Position numbers and translations under genes: made by a program. 54,515 bases of DNA from Acidimicrobiia bacterium. GTDB lineage: Bacteria; Actinomycetota; Acidimicrobiia; Spongiisociales; UBA5794. A model generated the notes under the pieces. It ran no database searches, had not been told where the DNA came from, and worked only from the letters and a program-made list of their open reading frames with translations. The DNA is taken from assembly GCA_026985095.1 (NCBI GenBank), contig JALSQW010000009.1, positions 1 through 54,515 on the forward strand. Direction: 5' to 3'. The stretch's first letter is position 1; each line of letters starts with the position of its first letter. Below, in pieces: positions 9,801 through 31,037 of this stretch.

Positions 9801-10458
9801 GGAGCACCGGACGATCCGGGTCGAGGCGACGGAGGCGATGCTCGATGATGCCTTGCTGGGGGATCAGCGCCCGGATGTCCTCGTCGGCCAGGATCTCGAT
9901 CTTGTTGACCTCGTGGGAGGTACGGAACCCGTCGAAGAAGTGGAGGAACGGGACGCGGCTCTCCAGGGTGGCCATCTCGGCGATCAGCGCCAGATCATGA
10001 GCCTCCTGGACGGAACCGCTGGCGAGCATGGCGAAGCCGGTGGTGCGGGTGGCCATGACGTCGCTGTGGTCGCCGAAGATCGACAGGGCGTGGGTGGCGA
10101 CGGTCCGTGCCGCGACGTGGAAGACGGTCGGCAGGAGCTCGCCGGCGATCTTGAACATGTTGGGGATCATCAGGAGGAGGCCCTGAGAGGCGGTGAACGT
10201 CGTGGTGAGGGCTCCACCCTGGAGGGAACCGTGGACGGTGCCGGCGGCGCCGGCCTCCGACTGCATCTCGATGACCTTGGGGACGGTGCCCCACACGTTG
10301 GTGGCTCCGGCGTTGGCCCACGAGTCGGCGAGTTCGCCCATCGGTGAGGCCGGGGTGATGGGGTAGATGGAGATGACCTCGTTGGTGCGGAACGCGACCG
10401 ACGCGGCAGCCTCGTTGCCGTCGATCGTCACCATCTTCCGCGGGCCGTCGTCGCTCAT
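6865..10458 (-). CDS. nifJ: Pyruvate:ferredoxin (flavodoxin) oxidoreductase
   Basis: Single-chain 1197-residue enzyme, normal for the fused PFOR family, converting pyruvate and CoA to acetyl-CoA, CO2 and reduced ferredoxin. Domain order: N-terminal pyrimidine/TPP domain (IYPITPASPMGE), gamma domain, ferredoxin domain with CIDCARCAISCP and CTGCGVCVDVCP, then the C-terminal TPP domain with CAGCGETPYLKLL, ATGCSSIYGGNLPTTPW and GGDGWAYDIGFGGLDH. The last residues are an unusual His/Glu tail (EHHHHDHGEEEE). The ATG at 10458 has AAGGAGG about 8 bases upstream. It is the first gene of a likely PFOR, DHOD-like, fhs operon and lies 77 bp from a 37-bp repeat array. Confidence 0.97.
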   Translation of the reverse strand: MSDDGPRKMVTIDGNEAAASVAFRTNEVISIYPITPASPMGELADSWANAGATNVWGTVPKVIEMQSEAGAAGTVHGSLQGGALTTTFTASQGLLLMIPNMFKIAGELLPTVFHVAARTVATHALSIFGDHSDVMATRTTGFAMLASGSVQEAHDLALIAEMATLESRVPFLHFFDGFRTSHEVNKIEILADEDIRALIPQQGIIEHRLRRLDPDRPVLRGSAQNPDVFFQAREAVNPFYDRLPDIVLGAMDRFHSRVGRRYHLFDYVGAPDATEVIVMMGSGTGAAEETVAALNARGRKVGLVKVRLYRPYSAEAFVAALPATVETVAVLDRTKEPGALGEPLFQDVATAVVEETQAGRTSWPVPPRVIGGRYGLSSKEFTPAMAAAVFDEAAKDDPKRRFTVGIIDDVTHRSLAVDPDFDTGLRAKHRAVFYGLGSDGTVGANKNSVKIVGEHTDMYAQGYFVYDSRKAGSVTVSHLRFDDRPISATYLITDANFVACHQFEFMSKMDVLRLATEGATFLLNSPYPADEVWDRLPVEAQRQIIDKKLRFFVVDAYDVAKAAGLGVRINTVMQTCFFALSEVLPVDRAIDAIKTAIAKSYGKFGDVVLEKNYQAVDGALAGLTEVTVPAEATSTVHLRQPVPAYAPDFVKRVTAMMLEGRGDLLPVSAMPVDGTFPTGTTQYEKRSIAREIPIFDPEICIDCARCAISCPHAAIRMKVFEPTALEGAPETFRSKPFKSRELEGFFMTIQVAPDDCTGCGVCVDVCPAKSKEQVKHKAINMEPKDPHLAVERANWDYFLTIPDPDPAEVRLDTVKGSQMMEPLFEFSGACAGCGETPYLKLLTQMLGDRMLVANATGCSSIYGGNLPTTPWRANDEGRGPAWANSLFEDNAEYGLGMRLALDQEIAEARRLVGELLPQLGEGLVTALLEADQSTYEGIQLQRKHVAELDERLASMESPEARRLASISGALVRKSVWIIGGDGWAYDIGFGGLDHALASGLDINILVLDTEVYSNTGGQASKATPRGAVAKFAAGGKPTPKKDLGQIAMAYENVYVAHVALGANNMQTVKAFAEAESYEGPSIVIAYSTCIAHGIDMSKSLSHQKELVDSGYWPLYRFDPRRIDVDQHPFHLDSRKPKIPFAEVAAKEARYAMLRRSDPERAEVLLELAQDDIDERWELYEQFAEIEHHHHDHGEEEE

Positions 10459-10535
10459 GGTGGGGACCTCCTTCGGGAGCCTCCATCGTACGACGTGCAC
10501 CACCCGCCGGGTACAGGACCATCGGCCCTTCGTCG

Positions 10536-10666
10536 AACCCAGGGTTCACCACCCCCCAAAAGGGGGTTCCCCAACCCAGGGTTCACCACCCCCCAAAAGG
10601 GGCATCCCCAACCCAGGGTTCACCACCCCCCAAAAGGGGGTTCCCCAACCCAGGGTTCACCACACC
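10536..10666 (+). repeat. 37-bp tandem repeat array A (AAAA-loop subtype), 3.5 copies
   Basis: Three full units at 10536, 10573 and 10610 and a 20-bp partial unit at 10647, at an exact 37-bp period with no spacers. Each unit begins AACCCAGGGTTCACCAC, then has a CCCC-AAAA-GGGG hairpin core and ends in CCCC. The middle unit differs by only two or three bases. It lies between the pspA stop and the PFOR start, both minus strand, and would be in any PFOR leader transcribed from further upstream. I see no coding function in it. Confidence 0.93.
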
Positions 10667-10698
10667 ATGCCGAGGTCGAGACCCGGCAGGGAGGCGGC

Positions 10699-11457
10699 TC
10701 AGGCCTCGGTGGCTTCCGCTTCGCCGGTGGACGTGTCGGTCGATCCGCCGAGACCGAGCTCCCGCTTGAGCTCCTCGAGCTTGGCGTCGGCCTGCGCGAC
10801 GTTGATGGCTTCGCGCAACTCGGCCTCGGCGCCCTCGGGCGTCGCCTCGTGCAACTCGGCACGGGCCATGGCTTCGGACTTCCGCTGCTCGATCTTCTCC
10901 TCGACCTTGTCGAGCGACGGGAGTTGGTCCTCCATCGTCGAGGACATCGACTGCACCGCCTGGTTGACGGCCTCCTGCATCTTCGCCTGCTGCAACGAGC
11001 CGAGAAGCTCCATCCGCTTGGCCGACAGCTCCTGCAGCCGCATGGCGTTGGACTGGACCGCCTCCTTCGCCTGCTCCGCCTGATCGGTGGCGACCTCGTA
11101 CTGCTGCTTGAGTGAGTTCAGGTTGTTCTCCGCGGCCTGGAGCTTCATGGCGATCGCCTGCGCGGCCTTCGTCCACTTCTCCTGGGCCGCCACGTCGCCG
11201 GCGGCTTTCGCGTCCTCCGCCTTCAGCAACGCCTGCTTTGCCATCTCCCTCGCCTCACCGACGTCTTCGGCCGCCTTCTCGATCTTCGCTTCGAGTTGGG
11301 TGCGATGAGCGATCACCTTGGCGGCCTGGTTGCGGAGCTGTTGGTCGCGCTTCTTCGCTTCGTCGATCGCCGCCTGGATCTCGATCTCGGGATCCATGGC
11401 CTTCTCGGCGGACGACTTGAACAGGGCCTTGAGGTACGCCCAGATACGCTTGAACAT
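10699..11457 (-). CDS. pspA: PspA/IM30 (ESCRT-III-like) family protein
   Basis: 252 residues, almost entirely Ala/Glu/Lys/Gln-rich heptad helix: MFKRIWAYLKALFKSSAEKAMDPE at the amphipathic N-terminus, followed by a coiled coil to about residue 225 and a short acidic Ser/Thr tail. This is the plan of PspA/IM30/Vipp1 membrane-remodelling proteins that protect the cytoplasmic membrane under stress. The downstream position behind a TPM-like membrane protein on the same strand (78 bp gap) suggests a membrane-stress module. The length is typical for the family. Confidence 0.88.
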   Translation of the reverse strand: MFKRIWAYLKALFKSSAEKAMDPEIEIQAAIDEAKKRDQQLRNQAAKVIAHRTQLEAKIEKAAEDVGEAREMAKQALLKAEDAKAAGDVAAQEKWTKAAQAIAMKLQAAENNLNSLKQQYEVATDQAEQAKEAVQSNAMRLQELSAKRMELLGSLQQAKMQEAVNQAVQSMSSTMEDQLPSLDKVEEKIEQRKSEAMARAELHEATPEGAEAELREAINVAQADAKLEELKRELGLGGSTDTSTGEAEATEA

Positions 11458-11535
11458 GGCGGAGATTCCCCTCCTCGACGATGCGTTGACCCTCGATTGT
11501 AGAGGCCGCCATCGGAGACGACGATCGCCGGGGCA

Positions 11536-12636
11536 TCAACGGCGGCGGCGACCTCCTCCGCGCATCCGGGTCGACGACCGCGTCCTGGTGCGCGTCGTGC
11601 TGCGGGATCGACCCACCCGACCGCCGGAACGCATCCCGGGGAACCGCGAACGCCGCCCGCCGCCCATCATCATCCCGGCCGCGCCGATCAAGATGTTCAT
11701 CAGGTCCGGGCTCGTGTACGAGCTGCGACGGGCCGGACGACGGTACGGTGCCGGCCGCGCTCGGGTGCCGGCCGGCACGGCGGGGGCGACCACAGGCTCG
11801 GGCTCCGGTGGCTCCGGCTTCGGCGGGATCGGTTGCCCGTCGAGGACGGCGTCGGCAGCGTCGAGTTCCCAGATCGCCTCGTCGAGACGGGTCGACAGCT
11901 CGAGGAGACGCTGAGGTGTCGAGACCTCTCCGAGCGCGGCGTTCACCTCGGTGTAGGTGGCACTGGCGCGTTCGTAGAACTCGCGGGCCTGCTCGTTCCC
12001 AGACAGGGAGATCTCGGCATCGAGGTCGATGATGTCGTTGGCGACGGCGTCGAGCTGCTCCTGCACCTTCCGTTTCGCCTCGTCGAGACGGGTCGCGGCG
12101 GCCTCGGCGGTTCTTCTGCTCCCGCGCCAGACGACGAACGCGACCACGGCGATGAGGCCGACGATCACCACCGCGAGCACGCCGATCCCTGATCCTCCCG
12201 ACGACGTCGGCTGCACCGCACCGACCGGGGCGCCGATGAGGGTGGCAACGAACCGTTCGACCACCTCGGTATCCGACCGGCCGTCGAGTGCGGCATCGGT
12301 GGCGGAGTCGAGCTGCTCGTTCGTGTACACGTCGCCGTCGGACGCCCAACCTACGGTGTCGGGGGCGACGACGAAGATGGTGCCGGCGCCGATGCGATCG
12401 AGGACCGCATCGGCGAAGGTCGTGGCCCCGCCCGGCGGTTCGTCGGCGAGCACGACGACACCGAGCCTGCCTCCCGCCGCCCGTGCGTCGGCGACGGCGG
12501 CGCCCACGGCTCCGACATCGACCGAGGCGCCGGGCTCCACGTAGAACCCCTGGTCGGCGACATCGGAGGCGACCTGGTCGGGCGAGGCAGCCGCCAACAG
12601 CAGGACGGCAACGAGAGCGACGATGGTGATGCGCAT
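11536..12636 (-). CDS. TPM-like domain membrane protein
   Basis: 366 residues. An N-terminal signal/anchor (MRITIVALVAVLLLAAA) precedes a mature domain of about 110 residues (QGFYVEPG...LGVVVLADEP...GTIFVVAPDTVG) resembling TPM-type domains. A second membrane segment (GIGVLAVVIVGLIAVVAFVVW) lies near residue 160, followed by a coiled-coil helical region, a Pro/Glu-rich linker and an Arg/Gly/Ser-rich tail ending GGGRRRR. The domain assignment is moderate. The ATG at 12636 lies 11 bp after the proline dehydrogenase stop with little Shine-Dalgarno, and a TAACCT box lies 8 bases upstream. Its neighbour pspA supports a membrane-associated role. Confidence 0.72.
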   Translation of the reverse strand: MRITIVALVAVLLLAAASPDQVASDVADQGFYVEPGASVDVGAVGAAVADARAAGGRLGVVVLADEPPGGATTFADAVLDRIGAGTIFVVAPDTVGWASDGDVYTNEQLDSATDAALDGRSDTEVVERFVATLIGAPVGAVQPTSSGGSGIGVLAVVIVGLIAVVAFVVWRGSRRTAEAAATRLDEAKRKVQEQLDAVANDIIDLDAEISLSGNEQAREFYERASATYTEVNAALGEVSTPQRLLELSTRLDEAIWELDAADAVLDGQPIPPKPEPPEPEPVVAPAVPAGTRARPAPYRRPARRSSYTSPDLMNILIGAAGMMMGGGRRSRFPGMRSGGRVGRSRSTTRTRTRSSTRMRGGGRRRR

Positions 12637-12647
12637 CAGGGACAAGG

Positions 12648-13562
12648 TTACCGACCCACCGCCGCCCGCAGGAAGAACACGAGGTTGGCCGGCCGTTCGG
12701 CGAGCCGACGGGTCAGATACGGGTACCAGGCCGAACCGTACGGCACGTACACCCGCAGGTGGTGGTCCCGGCGAACCAACCGGTCCTGAAGGTCCCGCCG
12801 GACCCCGTACAGCATCTGGAACTCCCATGGCTCCTCACGTTCGGCGGCCAGTTCGATCGCCAACGCGATCCGGTCGTCGTCGTGGGTGGCGATCGCAGGT
12901 CGCACCTGCGGGCTGGCCATGAGGACTCGCAGGAGCCGATCGAAGGCGGCATCGACGTCTTCTCTGCGCTGGTAGGCCACGTCCGGCGATTCGGCATAGG
13001 CGCCTTTGCAGAGCCGGATGTGGCCGCCGAGGGGGATGAGCCGATCCAGGTCGGCCCGGCTGCGATGCAGATATGCCTGCACGGCGATGCCGAGATTGCC
13101 GAGCTCGCTCTGGACCGTCTCGTAGGCCACGATGGTCGCTTCGGTATAGCGACTCTCCTCCATGTCCACCGTCACCGTGGTGTCCGTCGCTGCAGCCCGC
13201 TTGGCGAGCTCACGCAGCGAGTCCGTCGCGAGCCCGTCGTCGAGACCGAGGCCGAGTTGGGTGAGCTTGACCGAGATGTTGGCGTCGAGACCCTCGGCGG
13301 CGATCCGATCGAGACAGGAGAGGTAATCGTCCTTGGCGGCGAGCGCTTCGGCCCGGTCGGACACATGTTCACCGAGGTGGTCGAGGGAGACGAGCCGACC
13401 TTCGCGGTTGAGCCTGGCAGCGACGGCGGCTGCCTGGTCGAGGGTCTCTCCGGCGACGAAGCGATGCGACAGCCGACGTCCGGCGCCGGTGTCGGTGAGG
13501 AGCTTGCGCACCGGCGCACGGTCGGTCACCGCCAGCAGCGCCCTGCCGACCGCGGAGCTCAT
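12648..13562 (-). CDS. Proline dehydrogenase, monofunctional
   Basis: FAD-dependent oxidation of L-proline to pyrroline-5-carboxylate. 304 residues, the normal size of the short monofunctional PRODH. Typical barrel and active-site elements are ISVKLTQLGLGLD, TVDMEESRYTE, VQAYLHRSRADLDRL, RLCKGAYAES, FQMLYGVRRDLQDRLV and the C-terminal YPYLTRRLAERPANLVFF, which carries the substrate-binding Arg residues. No P5C dehydrogenase domain is fused and none is in the window. Its ATG overlaps the proC stop (ATGA), so the oxidising and reducing enzymes of the proline/P5C pair are translationally coupled. Confidence 0.94.
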   Translation of the reverse strand: MSSAVGRALLAVTDRAPVRKLLTDTGAGRRLSHRFVAGETLDQAAAVAARLNREGRLVSLDHLGEHVSDRAEALAAKDDYLSCLDRIAAEGLDANISVKLTQLGLGLDDGLATDSLRELAKRAAATDTTVTVDMEESRYTEATIVAYETVQSELGNLGIAVQAYLHRSRADLDRLIPLGGHIRLCKGAYAESPDVAYQRREDVDAAFDRLLRVLMASPQVRPAIATHDDDRIALAIELAAEREEPWEFQMLYGVRRDLQDRLVRRDHHLRVYVPYGSAWYPYLTRRLAERPANLVFFLRAAVGR

Positions 13563-14386
13563 CGCGGGCGCTCCTCGCCTCGGGCGATGGCACCGAGCTC
13601 ACGGGAGCGGGCGGCGGCAGCCCGGATGGCATCCTCCATCAAGGCCCGGAACCCCCCTTCCTCGAGGACGTGCATGGCTGCGGCGGTGGTCCCCCCCGGT
13701 GACGTGACCTCGCCTCGAAGGCGGAACGCCGACTTGCCGGACTCGGACAACAGCCGCCCCGCACCACGCAGCGTCTGGTGGACCAGCATCTCCGCGGCGT
13801 GGTGCGGGAGTCCTTCGCGGATGGCTGCTTCGGTCATCGCCTCTGCGAGGAGGAACACGTAGGCGGGACCGGTCCCCGATACGGCGGTGACGGCGTCGAG
13901 GAGATCCTCCGACAGGCCGATGGTGCGACCCACCGCCCCGAGGACGGCTTCGGCCTTCTCGCGGGCGTCGTCGGTGGCGTGGGTCCCACTGCAGTAGGCG
14001 GTCATGCCCTCGTCGACGGCCGACGGAGTGTTCGGCATCGCCCGGATGATGGGCACGTGAGGCATGGCGGCCTCGAAGACCGCCAACGGGACTCCGGCGG
14101 CGAGCGAGACGACGACCTGTTCGGGAGTGACGACACCGGCGACCTGATCGAGGAGGGCAGCGACGTCCTTGGGCTTGACGGCAACGACGACGACGTCCCG
14201 CCCGGTGGCGGCCTCCGCCGCGTCGAGGACGGTGCGGATACCGGTGAGGTGCTCGGCGTGCTCTGCTTGTTCGGCACGACGTGCGGCCATCACGATGTCG
14301 TCTGGCCGCCATCCCGCCCGGAGCAGGCCCCCGGCGAGGATGGTCCCCATCGCTCCGGATCCCAGGATCGCAACGGTCGGTTCCAT
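13559..14386 (-). CDS. proC: Pyrroline-5-carboxylate reductase
   Basis: NAD(P)H-dependent last step of proline synthesis. 275 residues, usual length. The Rossmann motif is VAILGSGAMGTILAGGLL, the central strands are VVVVAVKP and IIRAMPNTPSAV, and the dimerisation/active region SGTGPAYVFLLAEAMTEAA precedes LRGEVTSPGGTTAAAM. The start ATG lies 6 bases after a TAACCT -10 box with no Shine-Dalgarno, so the message is probably leaderless. It is followed directly by proline dehydrogenase. Confidence 0.96.
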   Translation of the reverse strand: MEPTVAILGSGAMGTILAGGLLRAGWRPDDIVMAARRAEQAEHAEHLTGIRTVLDAAEAATGRDVVVVAVKPKDVAALLDQVAGVVTPEQVVVSLAAGVPLAVFEAAMPHVPIIRAMPNTPSAVDEGMTAYCSGTHATDDAREKAEAVLGAVGRTIGLSEDLLDAVTAVSGTGPAYVFLLAEAMTEAAIREGLPHHAAEMLVHQTLRGAGRLLSESGKSAFRLRGEVTSPGGTTAAAMHVLEEGGFRALMEDAIRAAAARSRELGAIARGEERPR

Positions 14387-14392
14387 CGGCTC

Positions 14393-14398
14393 AGGTTA
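14393..14398 (-). promoter_or_regulatory. -10 box (TAACCT) of proC, leaderless layout
   Basis: TAACCT on the minus strand ends 6 bases before the proC ATG. That spacing puts transcription start at or next to the A of the start codon. No ribosome-binding site is present between them. Confidence 0.55.
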
Positions 14399-14516
14399 TC
14401 GCGGAACGGGCATGCATCCCCTGGGCGCTCGGACGCTCGGTGTCCACATCGGGGCTGGGTCCGGTTCCTGTCGGAGGCTCGAGGCATGGTGTGACCCATG
14501 ACCGACCACGGGGAGC

Positions 14517-15071
14517 TCAGCCGTCATGGCGCGCCAACGCCGCGGCGAACGAGCGAGAAGCCTCCGGTGCGTAGGCGACGAGGAGGACCTCCTCGAGGGC
14601 GCCGGGATGTCCGACGGCCCAGTCGACGACGGCGTCGACGATGACGGCGGTCGCCTCGCGGAGCGGATACCCGAAGATGCCCGCCGAGATGGCCGGCAGC
14701 GCGACGCGGGAAGCGCCGATCCTCGCCGACGCGTCGAGGGCGGCGTGGACCGCGGCTCGGAGCCGAGCGGCGTTGTCGGCACCGGATCGGTAGCGGGGGC
14801 CCACGACGTGGATCACGTGGCCTGCCGCGAGCTCGCCGCCGGTGGTGATCGCCGCCTCCCCGGGGTGGAGGGGGCCGTGCTGGGCGACCCACCGGCGGGA
14901 AGCCTCGACGAGCTCCTGTCCGGCCGCGCGGGCGATGGCGGCCGCGACCCCGCCGCCATGGGCGAGATGTTCGTTGGCGGCGTTGACGATCACGTCGACG
15001 TCGAGGGCGGTGATGTCGCCGTCGACGACGGCGACCGTCGTTCCGCCAACCCGTACAACGGCGTCCGTCAT
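14517..15071 (-). CDS. Macro-domain protein, O-acetyl-ADP-ribose deacetylase type
   Basis: 184 residues forming one complete macro domain: GDITALDVDVIVNAANEHLAHGGGVAAAIARAAG at the N-terminus, then GEAAITTGGELAAGHVIHVVGPRY, then ALPAISAGIFGYPLREA, the ADP-ribose-binding loops. Proteins of this group remove acetyl or ADP-ribosyl groups from ADP-ribose adducts; the precise substrate is unknown. It overlaps the murI stop by the ATGA arrangement. The 130 bp between this gene and proC hold nothing I can identify besides the proC -10 box. Confidence 0.9.
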   Translation of the reverse strand: MTDAVVRVGGTTVAVVDGDITALDVDVIVNAANEHLAHGGGVAAAIARAAGQELVEASRRWVAQHGPLHPGEAAITTGGELAAGHVIHVVGPRYRSGADNAARLRAAVHAALDASARIGASRVALPAISAGIFGYPLREATAVIVDAVVDWAVGHPGALEEVLLVAYAPEASRSFAAALARHDG

Positions 15072-15835
15072 GAGGCGGTCACCTTCGCGGCGCCGGCGAA
15101 CTGGGGCGTCAACCGGCGGAGCTGCTGGGCGAACCGCTCAGGATCCCCGGTGGTCACGAACCGGAGTGGGCCCGCCGGGGCCGCCGGCAGGAGCATGGCG
15201 ACCCTGCGAGCCACCGCGGCGGCGGGATCGACGATGGTGACGCCGTCCCCCGCGACGGCGGCGATGTCGGTGGCGAGGAACGAGTAGTGGGTGCAGCCGA
15301 GCACGATGGTGTCGACGCCGCGGTCCACCAACGGCCCCACGTAGGCGGAGACGAGCTGCCGCGCCCGAAGATCGTCGCCGTCCTCGACGGCGGTCGCCAG
15401 ACCGGGACAGGCGCGGGCGACGACGGCGACCGTCGACGCGTGCCGATCCACGACCGAGGCGAACAGGGTGCCCTGGAAGGTGGCTTCGGTGGCGAGGACC
15501 CCGATCGCTCGGGTGCGGGTGGAGGCAGCGGCGGGCTTCACCGCAGGTTCCATACCGACGAAGGCGATCTCCGGGAACCGCCTCCGTAGGTGGTGGAGCG
15601 CGGCCGCCGAGGCGCTGTTGCAGGCAACGACGACGAGCGCGGCTCCCGCGTCGACGAGGAGCGCCGTCACCGCCTCGGCACGCCGTCGCACGTCGACGAG
15701 CGAGCGTTCACCGTACGGGGCGTGAGCCTGATCGGCGACGTACGTGATGGCGGCGTCGGGGAGGAGCCGTCTGATCTCTGCGAGCACCGACAGTCCGCCG
15801 ACTCCCGAGTCGAAGACGCCGATGGAACCGATCAT
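15068..15835 (-). CDS. murI: Glutamate racemase
   Basis: Supplies D-glutamate for peptidoglycan. 255 residues, family-typical. The N-terminal IGVFDSGVGGLSVLAEIRRLLP contains the Asp-Ser pair. The two catalytic cysteines lie in VVACNSASA (about residue 72) and VLGCTHYSFLA (about residue 180). It lies one base downstream of the metX stop and overlaps the macro-domain gene, so metX, murI and the macro-domain gene form a tight run. Confidence 0.96.
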   Translation of the reverse strand: MIGSIGVFDSGVGGLSVLAEIRRLLPDAAITYVADQAHAPYGERSLVDVRRRAEAVTALLVDAGAALVVVACNSASAAALHHLRRRFPEIAFVGMEPAVKPAAASTRTRAIGVLATEATFQGTLFASVVDRHASTVAVVARACPGLATAVEDGDDLRARQLVSAYVGPLVDRGVDTIVLGCTHYSFLATDIAAVAGDGVTIVDPAAAVARRVAMLLPAAPAGPLRFVTTGDPERFAQQLRRLTPQFAGAAKVTAS

Positions 15836-15836
15836 G

Positions 15837-17000
15837 TCACCCGTGCCAGGGTCGGGTCAGCGTGTCGACGAGATGGGGGGAGAACAACTCGGGTTCGAGG
15901 AGGAACGAGTCGTGGCCCTTCTCCGAGTGCACGGTGATCCGACGGTGCGGGACCCCGGCGGCCTTCAGTTTGCGAGCCAGGTCCTCCTGCTCGTCGGGGT
16001 AGTAGCAGACGTCCGAATCGATCGAGAACAGCATGTACCGCTGCGCCTTGCAGGCGATGAACGCCTCGACGACGTCATCCACCTCAGCCTCGTCGACGAG
16101 GTCGTAGGTCTGCCAGGCCTCCATGATCCGCAGGTAACTGTTGGCGTCGAAGCGCCGAACGAACTTGTTGCCTTGGTGCCACATGTAGGACTCCAGGGGC
16201 GTCCGCACCCCGTAGGTCCCGGGACCTTCCCCGGGCGCAGGAACCTCGGCCCGGGCACGCTCCTCCATCGCAGCGAGCGACACGAAGGTCTTGTGGCCGA
16301 TCATGCGAGCGAGCCGGAGCCCGGCGACGGGCCCTTCGGTGCCGTAGTAGTCGCCTCCGGCGAATGCGGGGTCGTTCTGGATCGCGACGATCTGCTCGAA
16401 GTTGTGGATCTGATGGAGGGCCGTCGTGCGGTATCCCGATGCGATGGGGATGACCAAGCGCACGCGGTGTGGGTAGCGGGTGGCCAGGGAGAGGGCGAGC
16501 ATGCCGCCGGTGGATGCGCCGACGACGGCGTGGAGGCGTTCGATGCCGAGATGATCGAGGAGCCGCATCTGCACGTCCACCATGTCGGCGAAGGTGACCG
16601 ACGGGAACGCGGACCCGTATGGTCGGCCGGTGACGGGATCGAGTGAGGAGGGTCCGGTGCTCCCGTAGCACCCGCCCAGGTAGTTGGCCGACACGACGAA
16701 GAAGCGATCGGTGTCGAGAGCCTCGCCCGGCCCGATGAACCGATCCCACCATCCGCGTTGGCATTCGTCGGTCCATTCGACGCCCAGTCCGGGAACGGCC
16801 TGGTTGTAGCCGGCGGCGTGTTGACTGCCGGTGAGGGCGTGGAACACCAAGATGGCGTTCGAGGCTTCGGCGTCGAGTTCGCCGTAGGTCTCGTAGGCGA
16901 CGGTCACCTCCGAGAGGGTCTGGCCCGACCGGAGCACGAACGGCTCGTCGTCCGAACCGAACGTGAAGAACCTGGTTTCTACGGGTCCGATGCCGGACAT
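15837..17000 (-). CDS. metX: Homoserine O-acetyltransferase
   Basis: Acyl transfer to homoserine in methionine synthesis. 387 residues, usual for MetX. The alpha/beta-hydrolase core shows VFHALTGSQHAAG, SANYLGGCYGSTGPSSLDP, the nucleophile elbow VVGASTGGMLAL (Ser near 147), Asp in SIDSDVCYYPDEQ and His in EKGHDSFLLEPE. The elbow reads GASTGG where many MetX have GGSMGG. The product could be the acetyl or succinyl ester; the acetyl form is expected from the overall family. The next enzyme, MetY, is not in the window. Confidence 0.92.
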   Translation of the reverse strand: MSGIGPVETRFFTFGSDDEPFVLRSGQTLSEVTVAYETYGELDAEASNAILVFHALTGSQHAAGYNQAVPGLGVEWTDECQRGWWDRFIGPGEALDTDRFFVVSANYLGGCYGSTGPSSLDPVTGRPYGSAFPSVTFADMVDVQMRLLDHLGIERLHAVVGASTGGMLALSLATRYPHRVRLVIPIASGYRTTALHQIHNFEQIVAIQNDPAFAGGDYYGTEGPVAGLRLARMIGHKTFVSLAAMEERARAEVPAPGEGPGTYGVRTPLESYMWHQGNKFVRRFDANSYLRIMEAWQTYDLVDEAEVDDVVEAFIACKAQRYMLFSIDSDVCYYPDEQEDLARKLKAAGVPHRRITVHSEKGHDSFLLEPELFSPHLVDTLTRPWHG

Positions 17001-17027
17001 CGGTGTGCCTCCGTTCGCCGAGCGGCC

Positions 17028-17033
17028 AGGCTA
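17028..17033 (-). promoter_or_regulatory. Candidate -10 box (TAGCCT) of metX
   Basis: TAGCCT on the minus strand, 27 bases before the metX ATG, leaving a short leader that contains GGAGG at a normal distance. This is a led promoter, unlike several leaderless ones in the window. Confidence 0.4.
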
Positions 17034-17067
17034 GCGAGGTGACGCGGCCGATCCCCGCAGGCCGGGG

Positions 17068-17583
17068 TCACCGCAGGTACGGAACCCCGTAGCGGTCGCG
17101 GTGGGCGATCTCGCTCAGCGGTTTCCTGCCACCCCATCGAGCGGGGCGAGCGTCCGGCGCGGGGTAACCGAGCGCGACGGCGTAGCGGCACCGGCTCCCG
17201 GCCGGGAGCTCCAGGACGTGGTGGGCCTGGTTCTCCCGATGGAGCGTGATCGGACACGATCCGACGCCGATCGAGGCTGCGGCGAGCATGATGTTCTGGG
17301 CCATCCGTCCGGTGTCGAACTCGTATCCGTCCGGCTCTTGAACGAGGGCGACGGTGACCGGCGCGTGGCGGATCGGATCGGTGTAGTCCCCGCAGGCAGC
17401 GAGGCGCTGCCGTTGATCGGGATCGGCGACGACGACGATCGCCCAGTTCTGACGGTTCTTCGAGCTTCCCGTCCACCTCGCGGCCTCGAGGATCTGCTCG
17501 AGGTCGCCGGCCGCCAGCGGCTCGTCCCGGTAGTTGCGGATGGCCCGCAGATGGAGGATGTGCTCGTAGCAGTCGTCGTGCAT
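17068..17583 (-). CDS. Nitroreductase family protein
   Basis: 171 residues with nitroreductase FMN-binding features: the N-terminal LRAIRNYRDEPL, ILEAARWTGSSKNRQNWAIVVV, a central GRMAQNIMLAAASIGVGSCPITL and the C-terminal VALGYPAP. The physiological substrate is unknown. The ATG at 17583 was chosen because any further in-frame extension would run into the 37-bp repeat array B and give repeat-derived residues. A TACGCT box ends 8 bases before the ATG, so the leader would be very short. Confidence 0.87.
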   Translation of the reverse strand: MHDDCYEHILHLRAIRNYRDEPLAAGDLEQILEAARWTGSSKNRQNWAIVVVADPDQRQRLAACGDYTDPIRHAPVTVALVQEPDGYEFDTGRMAQNIMLAAASIGVGSCPITLHRENQAHHVLELPAGSRCRYAVALGYPAPDARPARWGGRKPLSEIAHRDRYGVPYLR

Positions 17584-17616
17584 GATCGCCCAGCGTACCG
17601 CCTCCCCGGACCGCCC

Positions 17617-17705
17617 AACCCAGGGTTCGCCACACCCCTCCAGGGGGCTCCACAACCCAGGGTTCGCCACACCCCTCCAGGGGGTTCACCAACCCTGGGT
17701 TCGCC
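17617..17705 (+). repeat. 37-bp tandem repeat array B (TCCA-loop subtype), 2.4 copies
   Basis: Units at 17617 and 17654 plus a 15-bp partial at 17691, with the same exact 37-bp period as arrays A and C. Units begin AACCCAGGGTTCGCCACA and carry a CCCC-TCCA-GGGG hairpin core. In the final partial unit the first block reads AACCCTGGGTT, one base from the others. It fills most of the gap between the nitroreductase start and the DUF559 stop. Confidence 0.9.
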
Positions 17706-17744
17706 GTACATGGGGAGGACGGGGGTGCGGACAGGTTGGACCGG

Positions 17745-18668
17745 CTACCGACCGACACCGACGCGGGAAGCTGCCGTCAGCACCGAGTCGATCTCGCTCG
17801 CGACCTGGGGGCGTCGACGTTCCAGATCGAGCCAGGTCACGCGCAGCACCGTCCATCCGTGGACGGCCGCGAGTCGATCCCTGCGCCGATCGTGCTCGAA
17901 GTCGGCGACTCGAGTGTGCCATCGGCGGGAGTCCCATTCGATCGCCACGCGTCGTTCAGGGTACGCGGCGTCGAACCGTTCACCGCTGGTCCACGGCACC
18001 GGGAACTGCGTCAGTGGAGCCGGGAGCCCGTGATCGGAGAGCATCGCCAGGCCCCGCCGCTCCAGCTCGGTCGCCGTCGCCCACGACGGGTCGGTGCGTT
18101 CTGTGAGCACCTCGCGCAGGGACGCCGAACCGGGCTTGCCCCGCCGGGCCACCTCATCGACGAGCTCCGCCAGGGTCTCGATGCTCATCCTCGAGCCCAC
18201 CACCAGTTCGTCGACGATGCGGCCGAGATGCCCGCACGACACATGCGCGGCGAGATCGACCACGGTACGCGGGAGCGTCGTCACCGGCAGCCCGTCGATC
18301 TCCTCGACGTGATGGGGCGCCAGATCGAAGCAACGGCGGACCACGACGCTGACGAACCGATGGGTCGTCGACGAGTGCACCATCACGGTCGCGGGAGCGC
18401 GCGGCACCGTGTCGATGCCGTGGAGTCGCGCCGCAGAGTGGTGCGAGACCGTCGCGTTCGGCAGGGTGGCCACCGCACCATGGAGGAGTTCGCGGAAGTC
18501 TCGGGCGTCGAGCAACCGGTAGACCCCACGCGCAGCGACGGTCCAACGACCCGACGAGAGGCGTGATTGGATCATCTTGGCCGTCAGGCCGGCGTCGAGG
18601 GCCTGCGTGCGGCGGATGACTCCGCCCTGTCGGGCGGCGATCTGGAGGCATTCACGTTCTCTGGACAT
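17745..18668 (-). CDS. AbiEi-type N-terminal domain plus DUF559 nuclease-like protein
   Basis: 307 residues. The N-terminal 60 residues (MSRERECLQIAARQGGVIRRTQALDAGLTAKMIQ...GVYRLL) resemble the winged-helix AbiEi antitoxin-type domain. The C-terminal 100 residues carry the DUF559 / Vsr-like fold signature (RRVAIEWDSRRWH...FEHDRRRDRLAAVHGWTVLRVTW). Such fusions are common in actinobacteria and their role is unsettled; no partner AbiEii toxin is adjacent. A CACCCT box lies 6 bases before the ATG, a weak leaderless candidate. The gene is bracketed by repeat arrays B (3' side) and C (5' side) of the same subtype. Confidence 0.82.
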   Translation of the reverse strand: MSRERECLQIAARQGGVIRRTQALDAGLTAKMIQSRLSSGRWTVAARGVYRLLDARDFRELLHGAVATLPNATVSHHSAARLHGIDTVPRAPATVMVHSSTTHRFVSVVVRRCFDLAPHHVEEIDGLPVTTLPRTVVDLAAHVSCGHLGRIVDELVVGSRMSIETLAELVDEVARRGKPGSASLREVLTERTDPSWATATELERRGLAMLSDHGLPAPLTQFPVPWTSGERFDAAYPERRVAIEWDSRRWHTRVADFEHDRRRDRLAAVHGWTVLRVTWLDLERRRPQVASEIDSVLTAASRVGVGR

Positions 18669-18736
18669 GTCCCAAGGGTGGACGACGGGTGCGACAGACT
18701 CCGCCGATCCGCACTGCGGCTACCTCCCCCACCACG

Positions 18737-18847
18737 AACCGTGGGCTGGAGACACCCCTCCAGGGGGCTCCCCAACCCAGGGTTCACCACACCCCTCCAG
18801 GGGGCTCCCCAACCCAGGGTTCACCACACCCCTCCAGGGGGTGTGGC
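18737..18847 (+). repeat. 37-bp tandem repeat array C (TCCA-loop subtype), about 3 copies
   Basis: Units start at 18737, 18774 and 18811, again exactly 37 bp apart. The first unit is degenerate in its first block (AACCGTGGGCTGGAGAC) and the last is degenerate after the hairpin. The core is CCCC-TCCA-GGGG as in array B. It lies in the 273-bp divergent gap between the DUF559 gene and the spondin-domain lipoprotein; I see nothing else clear in that gap. Confidence 0.9.
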
Positions 18848-18941
18848 GAGCCGGGGCGAGTTCATGGAACGGCCAGATGTGCGTAAGGGTCTGGCAAGAA
18901 CCATGTCGCACGATGGCATCCAGCGACAGAAAGGGAATCCG

Positions 18942-20300
18942 ATGCGACGAGCGATCATCGCCGCGAGCGCGCTCGCGGTCCTTCTCGCCGCCTGCGGCGG
19001 GTCCGGATCCTCCAGCACCTCGACTCCAGAGGCCGGGGCGACCACGACCACCACGGCGACGACCACCACCGCGAGCGACACCGACGAGATGATGGGTACC
19101 GAGTTCACGGTGTCCATCCAGAACATGACCGACGCCTTCCCGATCTCGGCCAGTGGCGTCTTCGCCGTCCCCGACGGCGCATCCGATCCCGGTCCGGCGT
19201 TGCCGGGCAGCGGCTACACGTTCGACGTCTACGCGATGCCGGGCGACCGTCTGTCGTTCGCCACCATGTTCGTGCAATCGAACGACCTCGTGATCGCCAC
19301 GCCACCGGAGGGGATCGCGTTGTACGACGGTGACGAACCGGTCTCAGGCGACGTCACCGACCAGATCGGCGTGTGGGACGCCGGCACCGAGATCGACCAG
19401 CCTCTCGGCGGGGGAGCCGATCAGGCGCCTCGCCAGGCCGGGCCCAACACCGGAGCCCCCGACGAGATCGGCACCGTCCGGCGGGTCGTTCCGGGTGAGC
19501 GAGAGATCGACCCCATCGACCAGATCGTGACCGTGACGGTCACCCCCGGGCCCGACGGCAGGTTCACCATCGCGATCGCCAACGTGTCCGACGGATCGAT
19601 GTACGCCACGCCGCTGGCTCCCGGCGTCTTCGCGGTGCACCGTGACGGGATGCCGCTGTTCACCGAAGGGGAGCCCGACAGGGGCCTCGGCCTCGAAGCC
19701 CTCGCAGAGGACGGCGACCCCAGCGGCTTGGCCGGGGCGTTGGCAGCCGAGACCGGGATCGCCACACCGCTGGCACCCGGGGTGTATGCGATCCACCGGG
19801 ACCCGGGTGTGCTCTTCACCGACGGCGAACCCGACAAGGGTCAGGGCCTCGAAGCCCTCGCAGAGGATGGCGATCCCAGCGTGCTCGCCGACGCCTTGAA
19901 CGGCAACGAGATGGTGGGACACTTCGGGACCTTCGCCGTTCCCGACGGCGCATCCGATCCCGGTCCGGCGTTCCCGGGCGGCGGCTACACGTTCACGTTC
20001 ATGGCCGAGCCGGGCGACCGCCTCTCGTTCGCCACCATGTTCGTCCAATCCAACGACTGGTTCTTCGCCACATCGGATCAGGGCATCGCCCTGTTCGACG
20101 GCGAGGAGCCCATCGGGGGTGACATCACCGCGATGATCGGCCTGTGGGACGCGGGCACCGAGATCGACCAGCCCCTCGGGTTCGGTCCCGACCAGGCACC
20201 TCGCCAGGCCGGCCCGAACACCGGAGCGCCCGACGCCGTCGGTACCGTCCGCATGGTGGCGGGCGGCGGCATCGTCGTGACCATCACGGCAGCCGGCTGA
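18942..20300 (+). CDS. Spondin-domain lipoprotein with nested internal duplications
   Basis: 452 residues. The start MRRAIIAASALAVLLAAC gives a lipobox with Cys at 18, then a Ser/Thr-rich linker with Thr runs. The body is built from Spondin_N-type modules. A block with FATMFVQSND, a VWDAGTEIDQPLG-type stretch and APRQAGPNTGAPD occurs twice (about residues 70-180 and 330-440). Between them a block of about 45 residues (ATPLAPGV...LEALAEDGDPS) is tandemly duplicated. Copies are close even at DNA level, so duplication looks recent. It is probably a surface-anchored adhesion or matrix protein. The ATG has AAGGGA about 7 bases upstream. Confidence 0.85.
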   Translation: MRRAIIAASALAVLLAACGGSGSSSTSTPEAGATTTTTATTTTASDTDEMMGTEFTVSIQNMTDAFPISASGVFAVPDGASDPGPALPGSGYTFDVYAMPGDRLSFATMFVQSNDLVIATPPEGIALYDGDEPVSGDVTDQIGVWDAGTEIDQPLGGGADQAPRQAGPNTGAPDEIGTVRRVVPGEREIDPIDQIVTVTVTPGPDGRFTIAIANVSDGSMYATPLAPGVFAVHRDGMPLFTEGEPDRGLGLEALAEDGDPSGLAGALAAETGIATPLAPGVYAIHRDPGVLFTDGEPDKGQGLEALAEDGDPSVLADALNGNEMVGHFGTFAVPDGASDPGPAFPGGGYTFTFMAEPGDRLSFATMFVQSNDWFFATSDQGIALFDGEEPIGGDITAMIGLWDAGTEIDQPLGFGPDQAPRQAGPNTGAPDAVGTVRMVAGGGIVVTITAAG

Positions 20301-20323
20301 ACCACGCGACCCGAGCATGCAGC

Positions 20324-20349
20324 GGGGGCGGGCCTGAGGGCCCGCCCCC
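20324..20349. terminator. Hairpin terminator between convergent genes
   Basis: GGGGGCGGGC pairs with GCCCGCCCCC around a 6-base loop, followed on the plus strand by TTCCT. It sits 24 bp after the spondin-lipoprotein stop and 34 bp from the acyl-CoA dehydrogenase stop, and could serve both strands. Confidence 0.7.
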
Positions 20350-20382
20350 TTCCTGCTGTCCGACCGGGCGTCCGGCGCGCGG

Positions 20383-22185
20383 CTAGAAGCGATCGATCCC
20401 GAGCTCCATGAGCGCAGCGTCCTCGCTCTCGGCGAGCTCGCGGCGGAGTCTCGCCTGCGGCAGCACGTTGCGGACGAAGAACCGAGCCGACGCGATCTTT
20501 CCCTCGTAGAAGGCACGGTCCGTCTCGGAGGCTCCATCGAGCGCCGCCAAGGCGATCTCCGCATGGCGAACGAGCAGCCAGGCGATCACGACCTCCGAGA
20601 GACTGAACAGGAGATGGGTCGTGTGGAAGCCCGCCTTGTAGATCTCGGTCGGATCCTGCCGAGAAGCCATGGCATAGCCGACGAGGGTTCCGACCTCGGC
20701 CTGCACGTCGTCGAGGGCCTCACCGAGAGCCTGACGTTCTTCCGCCAGTTCTTCGGGTCCGCCCTTGACGGTGGCCAGGATGTCCTGACCGAGCTTCATC
20801 AGCGTGAGTCCCTGGTCACGAACGATCTTCCGGAAGAACAGGTCGAGCCCCTGGATGGCGGTCGTCCCCTCGTAGATCGTGTCGATCTTGGCGTCGCGGA
20901 TGTACTGCTCCATCGGGTAGTCCATCGTGTAGCCGTTGCCTCCGAGCGTCTGCAGCGACAGGGCCAGCATCTCGTAGCCCTTCTCCGACGAGTAGCCCTT
21001 CACCATCGGCAACAGCAGATCGTTGAGTCGAGCCCAATGGTCGTTGTCGGGCTCCAGCACCGCCTTGTCGAGCAGCATCGCCGCGTAGTGGACCAGCGCC
21101 CGCATCCCCTCGGCGTAGGACTTCTGCAGCATCAGCATCCGGCGAACGTCGGGATGCTGGATGATGGGCACTCGCGGTGCGGTCTTGTCCCGCATCTGGG
21201 TCATGTCGGGCCCCTGCTTGCGTTCCTTCGCGTACTCGAGAGCGTTGAGGTACCCCGTCGACAGGGTCGATGCCGACTTCACGCCGATGAGCATGCGGGC
21301 GTCCTCGATGACCTTGAACATCTGGCGGATCCCGTCGTGGACGTTGCCGACGAGGTAGCCGACACACGGCCGGTCCATGCCGAGGGTCAGTTCGCAGGTG
21401 GTCGAGCCCTTGATCCCCATCTTGTGTTCGATGTTGGTGGCGACGATGCCGTTGCGCGCTCCGAGGGTGCCGTCGTCGTTGACGAGGTACTTGGGCACGA
21501 TGAACATCGACAGTCCCTTGGTGCCCGGTCCGGCGCCTTCGGGTCGGGCGAGGACGAGATGGACGATGTTCTCGAAGTAGTCGGCCTCCCCCGAGGTGAT
21601 GAAGCGTTTGACCCCTTCGAGATGCCACATGTCGCCTTCGACGTGGACGGCCTTGGTCTTGCCTGCACCGACGTCCGATCCGGCGTCGGGCTCGGTGAGG
21701 ACCATGGTCGCTCCCCAGCGGCGTTCGACCATGGGCTTGGCGAACCGCTCCGCCTGCTCGGGGGTGCCTTCCTCGGCGATGATCCCCGCCATGAGCCCGC
21801 CGGAGGCGTACAGGAAGATGGCCGGGTTGGCGCCGACGAGCAGCTCGGTGGCCGCCCAACGCAACGCGTTGGGAGCGCCGAACCCGCCGAGCTCCTGGGG
21901 GACGCCGAGGAGATGCCACCCACCGTCGTAGAGGGCGTCGAGGCTCTTCTTGACGCCGTCGGGGAGGCGCACGGTGCCGTCTACGAGCCTCAACGGCGTC
22001 CGGTCGGCCTCGACGAAGCTGGCGGCGAAGTCCTCCCTGGCGAGGCGGTCGACCTCACGGAGGGCGTCCCTGGCGGTGTCCGCGTCGAACGAATCGAAGG
22101 GGGCTTTGCCGAAGTACTCGTGGACCCGGTTGACCTCGAAGAGGTTGAACTCCAGATCCCGCATGTTGCTCTTGAAATGGTCCAT
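20383..22185 (-). CDS. Acyl-CoA dehydrogenase, FadE5-like long form
   Basis: FAD-dependent first step of fatty acid beta-oxidation. 600 residues, the long form with a C-terminal extension like mycobacterial FadE5. Key parts: WGATMVLTEPDAGSDVGAGKT (FAD/substrate), MGIKGSTTCELTL, LQTLGGNGYTMDYPMEQYIRD, and the catalytic Glu in IYEGTTAIQGLDL (E439). The ATG at 22185 is chosen from the family start MDHFKSNMRDLEFNLFEV. It is divergent from a TetR gene whose product probably controls it through the 167-bp shared promoter region. Confidence 0.94.
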   Translation of the reverse strand: MDHFKSNMRDLEFNLFEVNRVHEYFGKAPFDSFDADTARDALREVDRLAREDFAASFVEADRTPLRLVDGTVRLPDGVKKSLDALYDGGWHLLGVPQELGGFGAPNALRWAATELLVGANPAIFLYASGGLMAGIIAEEGTPEQAERFAKPMVERRWGATMVLTEPDAGSDVGAGKTKAVHVEGDMWHLEGVKRFITSGEADYFENIVHLVLARPEGAGPGTKGLSMFIVPKYLVNDDGTLGARNGIVATNIEHKMGIKGSTTCELTLGMDRPCVGYLVGNVHDGIRQMFKVIEDARMLIGVKSASTLSTGYLNALEYAKERKQGPDMTQMRDKTAPRVPIIQHPDVRRMLMLQKSYAEGMRALVHYAAMLLDKAVLEPDNDHWARLNDLLLPMVKGYSSEKGYEMLALSLQTLGGNGYTMDYPMEQYIRDAKIDTIYEGTTAIQGLDLFFRKIVRDQGLTLMKLGQDILATVKGGPEELAEERQALGEALDDVQAEVGTLVGYAMASRQDPTEIYKAGFHTTHLLFSLSEVVIAWLLVRHAEIALAALDGASETDRAFYEGKIASARFFVRNVLPQARLRRELAESEDAALMELGIDRF

Positions 22186-29948: not shown

Positions 29949-31037
<1,089 letters not shown>

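Follow-up and report, generated by a model that had tools for sequence, protein, structure and literature searches.

A nuclease gene between two palindromic repeat arrays in an Acidimicrobiia bacterium: a candidate REP/RAYT-like system with an AbiEi/Vsr-like enzyme

REP-like palindromes are common in bacteria, and the locus described here raises the question whether a nuclease gene can be linked to such repeats in the way that RAYT genes are linked to REPs. The locus lies on contig JALSQW010000009.1 of an Acidimicrobiia bacterium (host genome G000, 2.93 Mb in 70 contigs); the contig was analysed as a stretch of 54,515 nt, which is called "the window" below. An earlier note on this DNA had described two arrays, B and C, that bracket one AbiEi/DUF559-type gene and nothing else. 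This layout was confirmed, with a single ORF inside the bracket. The features are as follows:

10536 to 10663, plus strand: array A, a dispersed member with four dyads and AAAA loops.
14387 to 14516, no strand assigned: junction of proC and a macro-domain gene, with no gene and no repeat.
17068 to 17592, minus strand: nitroreductase gene, the neighbour on the array B side.
17617 to 17705, plus strand: array B, three AACCCWGGGTT dyads with two CCCC-TCCA-GGGG hairpin spacers between them, 37-bp period.
17745 to 18668 (stop codon included), minus strand: gene for a standalone AbiEi_4 plus predicted Vsr-like (MTES_1575/DUF559-type) endonuclease of 307 aa.
18736 to 18747, plus strand: degenerate inner end GAACCGTGGGCT of array C.
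18752 to 18841, plus strand: array C, 37-bp period, with two exact dyads next to three hairpin spacers that have TCCA loops.
From 18942, plus strand: lipoprotein-like gene, the neighbour on the array C side.

The last hairpin of array C continues into an inverted, degenerate dyad, and inner ends akin to GAACCGTGGGCT, of the AGCCCACAG / AGCCCGCGG type, are also present in flanking elements of relatives. The product of the lipoprotein-like gene (18942-20300) contains a repeated segment (VFAVPDGASDPGPA..., APGVFAVHRD/APGVYAIHRD...) and has a weak match to Spond_N (Pfam, E 0.06). Elsewhere in the window, at 30084-30125, a perfect (ACCACG)7 hexanucleotide repeat was found.

The arrays of the host genome consist of AACCCWGGGTT dyads in alternation with a short CCCC..GGGG hairpin. 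The majority of the arrays that were read start and finish with a dyad, and they have one to four units at a spacing of exactly 37 bp. With up to three mismatches allowed, AACCCAGGGTTCRCC occurs 17 times in the window (100 shuffles: mean 3.3, maximum 7), and the whole genome contains 159 AACCCWGGGTT dyads versus 0 instances of the reversed control motif. In this high-GC DNA even clearly intergenic arrays of the window overlap spurious ORFs, so that a genome-wide intergenic placement of the dispersed copies is not claimed. An Rfam scan of window positions 10000-20500 yielded 0 matches. The z-scores for single-strand folding were clear (−2.5 to −5.5) for arrays A to C and for the hairpins of L106, L118, L124 and G106, and gave no clear signal for the elements of the related loci L074 and L066; a single simple hairpin therefore fails to describe every family.

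The earlier note had singled out two traits shared by B and C, the TCCA loop and the direct orientation. Both were verified (for the orientation of the units, the direct score is 69 and the inverted score 33), and neither is special. TCCA is the most frequent loop, present in 10 of the 31 units sampled, so its occurrence in both arrays says little, and it was rejected as a signal. In many related loci the repeats around the gene are inverted, and direct orientation is thus no rule of the system. Similarity is higher among the units of one array (0.93) than between units of different arrays (0.82; 0 of 2000 permutations), which points to amplification inside the arrays and not to amplification of the gene. 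Such homogenising is local and could proceed without the nuclease.

No NCBIfam model names the protein. In Pfam, its N-terminus matches AbiEi_4 above the cut-off (E 3.8e-9), and the matches of its C-terminus to MTES_1575 (E 2.1e-5) and to DUF559 (E 0.04) do not reach their cut-offs. In an AlphaFold2 model (mean pLDDT 92.5), the N-terminal two thirds (residues 2-192) have an AbiEi fold (AbiEi antitoxin 6Y8Q, Z 12.4), and residues ~200-302 resemble the catalytic domain of I-Bth0305I (PDB 3R3P, Z 12.6) and Vsr (PDB 1CW0, Z 10.3), i.e. the modelled C-terminal half is Vsr-like. Six residues (D233, E244, D246, W250, H251, and D260) are invariant across 58 homologues, suggesting that the nuclease has been kept active.

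To what extent are repeats associated with this gene family? We gathered 76 related loci, mostly from MAGs, and compared 250 bp upstream with 250 bp downstream of each gene, with a score of at least 22 and a z of at least 8 defining a matching repeat. Matching palindromic repeats were found on both sides of 38 of the 56 homologous genes with full flanks, but of only one of 118 neighbouring ORFs on the same contigs (p = 2e-23, with the proviso that loci of the same clade do not count as independent). In other Actinomycetota, 15 of 38 standalone homologues have matching repeats on both sides, in comparison to 0 of 23 control ORFs. Together with the motif counts and the genome-specific dispersal described below, these values strongly support the idea, put forward in the earlier note, that the nuclease family is linked to repeats as RAYTs are to REPs. 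The flanking repeats vary by gene and include AACCCWGGGTT, GCGTACCCAGGGTA, CGAAATTGG..CCAATTTCG, GAGTGTGCAT..ATGCACACTC, GTCTGTTGTGC..GCACAACAGAC, and others. For about one third of the homologues in the main set flanking repeats were not detected. This is also true for all members of one well-supported clade (L088-L092, L094), a lineage that has possibly lost its repeats. Two genomes of the same family group, G041 and G054, have few or no AACCCWGGGTT motifs. Numerous standalone AbiEi/DUF559-type paralogues, with up to 14 PF18741 matches per genome, are encoded in G106, G141, G163, G093, and G100, and only some of them have flanking repeats. Downstream of the homologue in G001 (locus L034, 2200-3142), the start of an ORF resembling an insertion-sequence transposase was found at the contig end.

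The flank counts bear on two alternative explanations. The first one regards the gene as a passenger between direct repeats, which is excised or amplified by homologous recombination without involvement of the protein. The earlier note had considered such an event between B and C, and no direct support for it was obtained. B and C are indeed direct repeats, and some relatives carry a single repeat without the gene at this junction. However, inverted flanks are common and cannot lead to excision by such recombination, and bracketing by unrelated repeats in many genera characterises this gene family and not its neighbour genes. The passenger explanation is therefore strongly disfavoured and hardly credible. 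The second alternative is phage defence, i.e. a standalone AbiEi/Vsr nuclease that restricts foreign DNA, with the repeats being mere self-marks or hot spots. PADLOC AbiEi models fit the N-terminal part of the protein (best E 1.6e-21), and related proteins have weak matches to anti-phage nucleases. A role in defence is nevertheless very improbable, given that it offers no reason to expect gene-specific repeats at either side of the gene, that no AbiEii toxin gene adjoins the nuclease gene, and that the adjoining genes encode the nitroreductase and the lipoprotein-like protein.

The number of repeats in a genome also tracks the presence of the gene. We counted AACCCWGGGTT motifs in 60 genomes of the order, 20 with a close homologue (E<1e-50) and 40 without. 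The medians are 25 and 0, respectively, and the gene is present in each of the 13 genomes that contain 12 motifs or more (by genome, p = 1.5e-8; by genus, p = 1.4e-6). Three genomes (G008, G032, and G034) have the gene and scarce AACCCWGGGTT motifs; they carry a variant, GTACCCAGGGT, at the gene, and among the genomes searched this variant is plentiful (17 to 47 copies) only in these three (G067 in this count is the same genome as G034). Three hairpin families not of the AACCC type were counted in ten genomes and had 8, 6, and 19 copies, each family being confined to its own genome.

The hairpin elements have arms of ~9-12 bp and spacers of 23-39 bp. All 19 copies of the largest family are 43 bp long, with a mean spacer identity of 52%; the search demanded exact arms, so that these figures do not describe arm conservation. 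The spacers have diverged, and recent copying is not evident in this family. Constant length and diverged spacers fit a binding site, and a third alternative is that the repeats are operators, at which the AbiEi-like half would act as a repressor of its own gene and of a regulon, and that they are kept for regulation and are not mobile. AbiEi is known to autoregulate through inverted repeats of a similar plan (PMC3985639), and the flank downstream of the gene might serve as a terminator or as another operator. What argues against this explanation is that repeats flank the gene on either side, that a genome may contain as many as 159 dyads, arranged in tandem arrays, and that the nuclease residues are invariant. 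In addition, array A and an element in G106 are located downstream of genes or between convergent genes and are missing in relatives (see below). Taken together, we regard a purely regulatory role as unlikely.

Next, the relationship between elements and protein phylogeny was considered. The tree places the close homologues in a single well-supported clade (24 rows), and most of their flanks contain a dyad of the ACCCWGGGT type. Paralogues of one genome have differing elements, and their orthologues elsewhere have similar elements, i.e. an element goes with the clade of its protein and not with the genome in which it lies. The likeness of flanks between orthologues is partly due to shared synteny. 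Among proteins less than 60% identical, flanks still become more similar as protein identity increases (Spearman 0.33), in contrast to regions 450-650 bp off (−0.06). The Mantel correlation is 0.31 near the gene, but control regions are also positive (0.21), so that this test of co-variation is supportive, not decisive.

Dispersed elements were compared with the orthologous sites of relatives. At the array A site, the locus in G001 has an array built of G001-type units. In contrast, G016, which has two motifs in its genome and no match to the gene, has no array at this site; both sides align at 81-82% identity, with 107 bp between them. G106 has a large genome and, from its gene content, probably belongs to Mycobacterium. 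It carries four copies of a 59-bp hairpin, two flanking the gene homologue and two elsewhere. One of the latter sites lies between convergent genes, and 6 of the 30 loci compared carry the hairpin or a diverged copy, while 15 have no element and no more than 12 bp between the genes. Four further loci from the genus of G106 (L240, L242, L246, and L259) have a different hairpin, ~CCGAGTGTGAA..TTCACACTCGG, with a CGACGGGTTTTCGGCGTGTCGCGTCG-like centre. Recognisable target-site duplications were found neither at the array A site nor at the G106 hairpin site.

The gene itself occupies two positions in the same conserved block. In L066, L067, L069, and L075, it is located with its flanking repeats between proC and the macro-domain gene, the junction that is empty in the window, where the gene lies between the nitroreductase and lipoprotein-like genes. 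The earlier note had proposed a comparison with relatives that have a single array and no gene. Upstream of the nitroreductase gene, these four indeed carry a lone repeat without the gene; their gene resides at the other junction, and at such repeat densities the solitary repeat could be due to chance.

Gene position is stable in several genera (L035/L041, L036/L037), and this, together with the diverged spacers, would agree with a domesticated host function, in which the nuclease would serve chromosome maintenance or recombination by acting at the dispersed palindromes and the dispersal would be ancient. But closely related genera, and even paralogues within a genome, have different repeat families, and many relatives do without both gene and repeats, making domestication quite improbable.

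Of the systems described previously, REPs and RAYTs (REPtrons, REPINs, and TIRtrons; PMC2817692, PMC3733652, PMC3116915) are most similar in that palindromic repeats flank the gene, often inverted, are dispersed in the same genome in numbers that track gene presence, co-vary with the protein, and form composite arrays. The partner enzymes of REP-like palindromes described in these papers are HUH tyrosine transposases (PMC2817692, PMC3733652, PMC3116915). The enzyme encoded in the window is instead an AbiEi/Vsr-like nuclease and not an HUH Y1 transposase of the IS200/IS605 kind, since Pfam gives AbiEi_4 and MTES_1575/DUF559 alone and the modelled fold is Vsr-like. In addition, no GTAG or CGTC tag was noted in the elements, and the hosts are Actinomycetota. 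The window system is therefore not a member of REP/RAYT, though alike in layout, dispersal, and co-variation.

Vsr and the homing endonuclease I-Bth0305I usually reside beside a cytosine methylase gene or in an intron. The protein shares with Vsr (1CW0) and the EDxHD homing endonuclease I-Bth0305I (3R3P) the predicted C-terminal fold and conserved acidic and histidine residues, but here this domain is joined to an AbiEi-like DNA-binding module, and palindromic repeats surround the gene. The AbiE type IV toxin-antitoxin system has in common with it the AbiEi fold (PDB 6Y8Q) and an operator that resembles the plan of the elements, as Streptococcus AbiEi binds inverted 11-bp arms 27 bp (N27) apart (PMC3985639). 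In contrast to AbiE, there is no adjacent gene for the AbiEii nucleotidyltransferase toxin, a C-terminal nuclease domain is added, and the sites flank the gene on either side and are scattered over the genome.

We consider it fairly probable that the gene and arrays B and C belong to a widespread actinobacterial nuclease/palindrome system that resembles REP/RAYT in its working. The similarity of arm and spacer plan to the AbiEi operator makes it likely, by analogy, that recognition of the element is the task of the N-terminal half and cutting at it that of the Vsr-like half. The AbiEi-like winged-helix half would bind a palindromic element of two inverted arms at fixed spacing, and the Vsr-like half would nick or cut the DNA at the element, possibly at an extruded hairpin. 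The dispersal and replacement of elements suggest that repair or replication may copy them, a route that has also been put forward for RAYTs and their REPs (PMC2817692, PMC3733652). Copying to new sites would leave each genome with its own set of non-autonomous palindromes, of which the copies next to the gene would be those that co-evolve with the protein. Gene and elements would occasionally relocate together. In the genus of the window, a basic element of 48 bp (dyad-hairpin-dyad) would have expanded in place to arrays of 37-bp units with shared dyads.

The open-access literature contained no report that links DUF559/AbiEi/Vsr-like nucleases to REP-like repeats; most subscription papers and all bioRxiv preprints were outside the scope of this search, and a prior description is possible. 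As far as this literature shows, the enzyme family has not been tied to such repeats before. It is a serious possibility, though somewhat short of probable, that we are dealing with an unrecognised class of mobile repeats, whose palindromes are spread around actinobacterial genomes by a Vsr-like nuclease that carries an AbiEi DNA-binding domain, along a route unrelated to HUH and DDE transposases and possibly homing-like. If this is true, the class would account for many of the intergenic palindromes in this phylum that have no assignment. If palindromes have a second, unrelated family of partner enzymes, this would represent convergence, actinobacterial repeats would gain a candidate mobilising enzyme, and the numerous standalone AbiEi_4/DUF559 proteins without an assigned function would gain a role.
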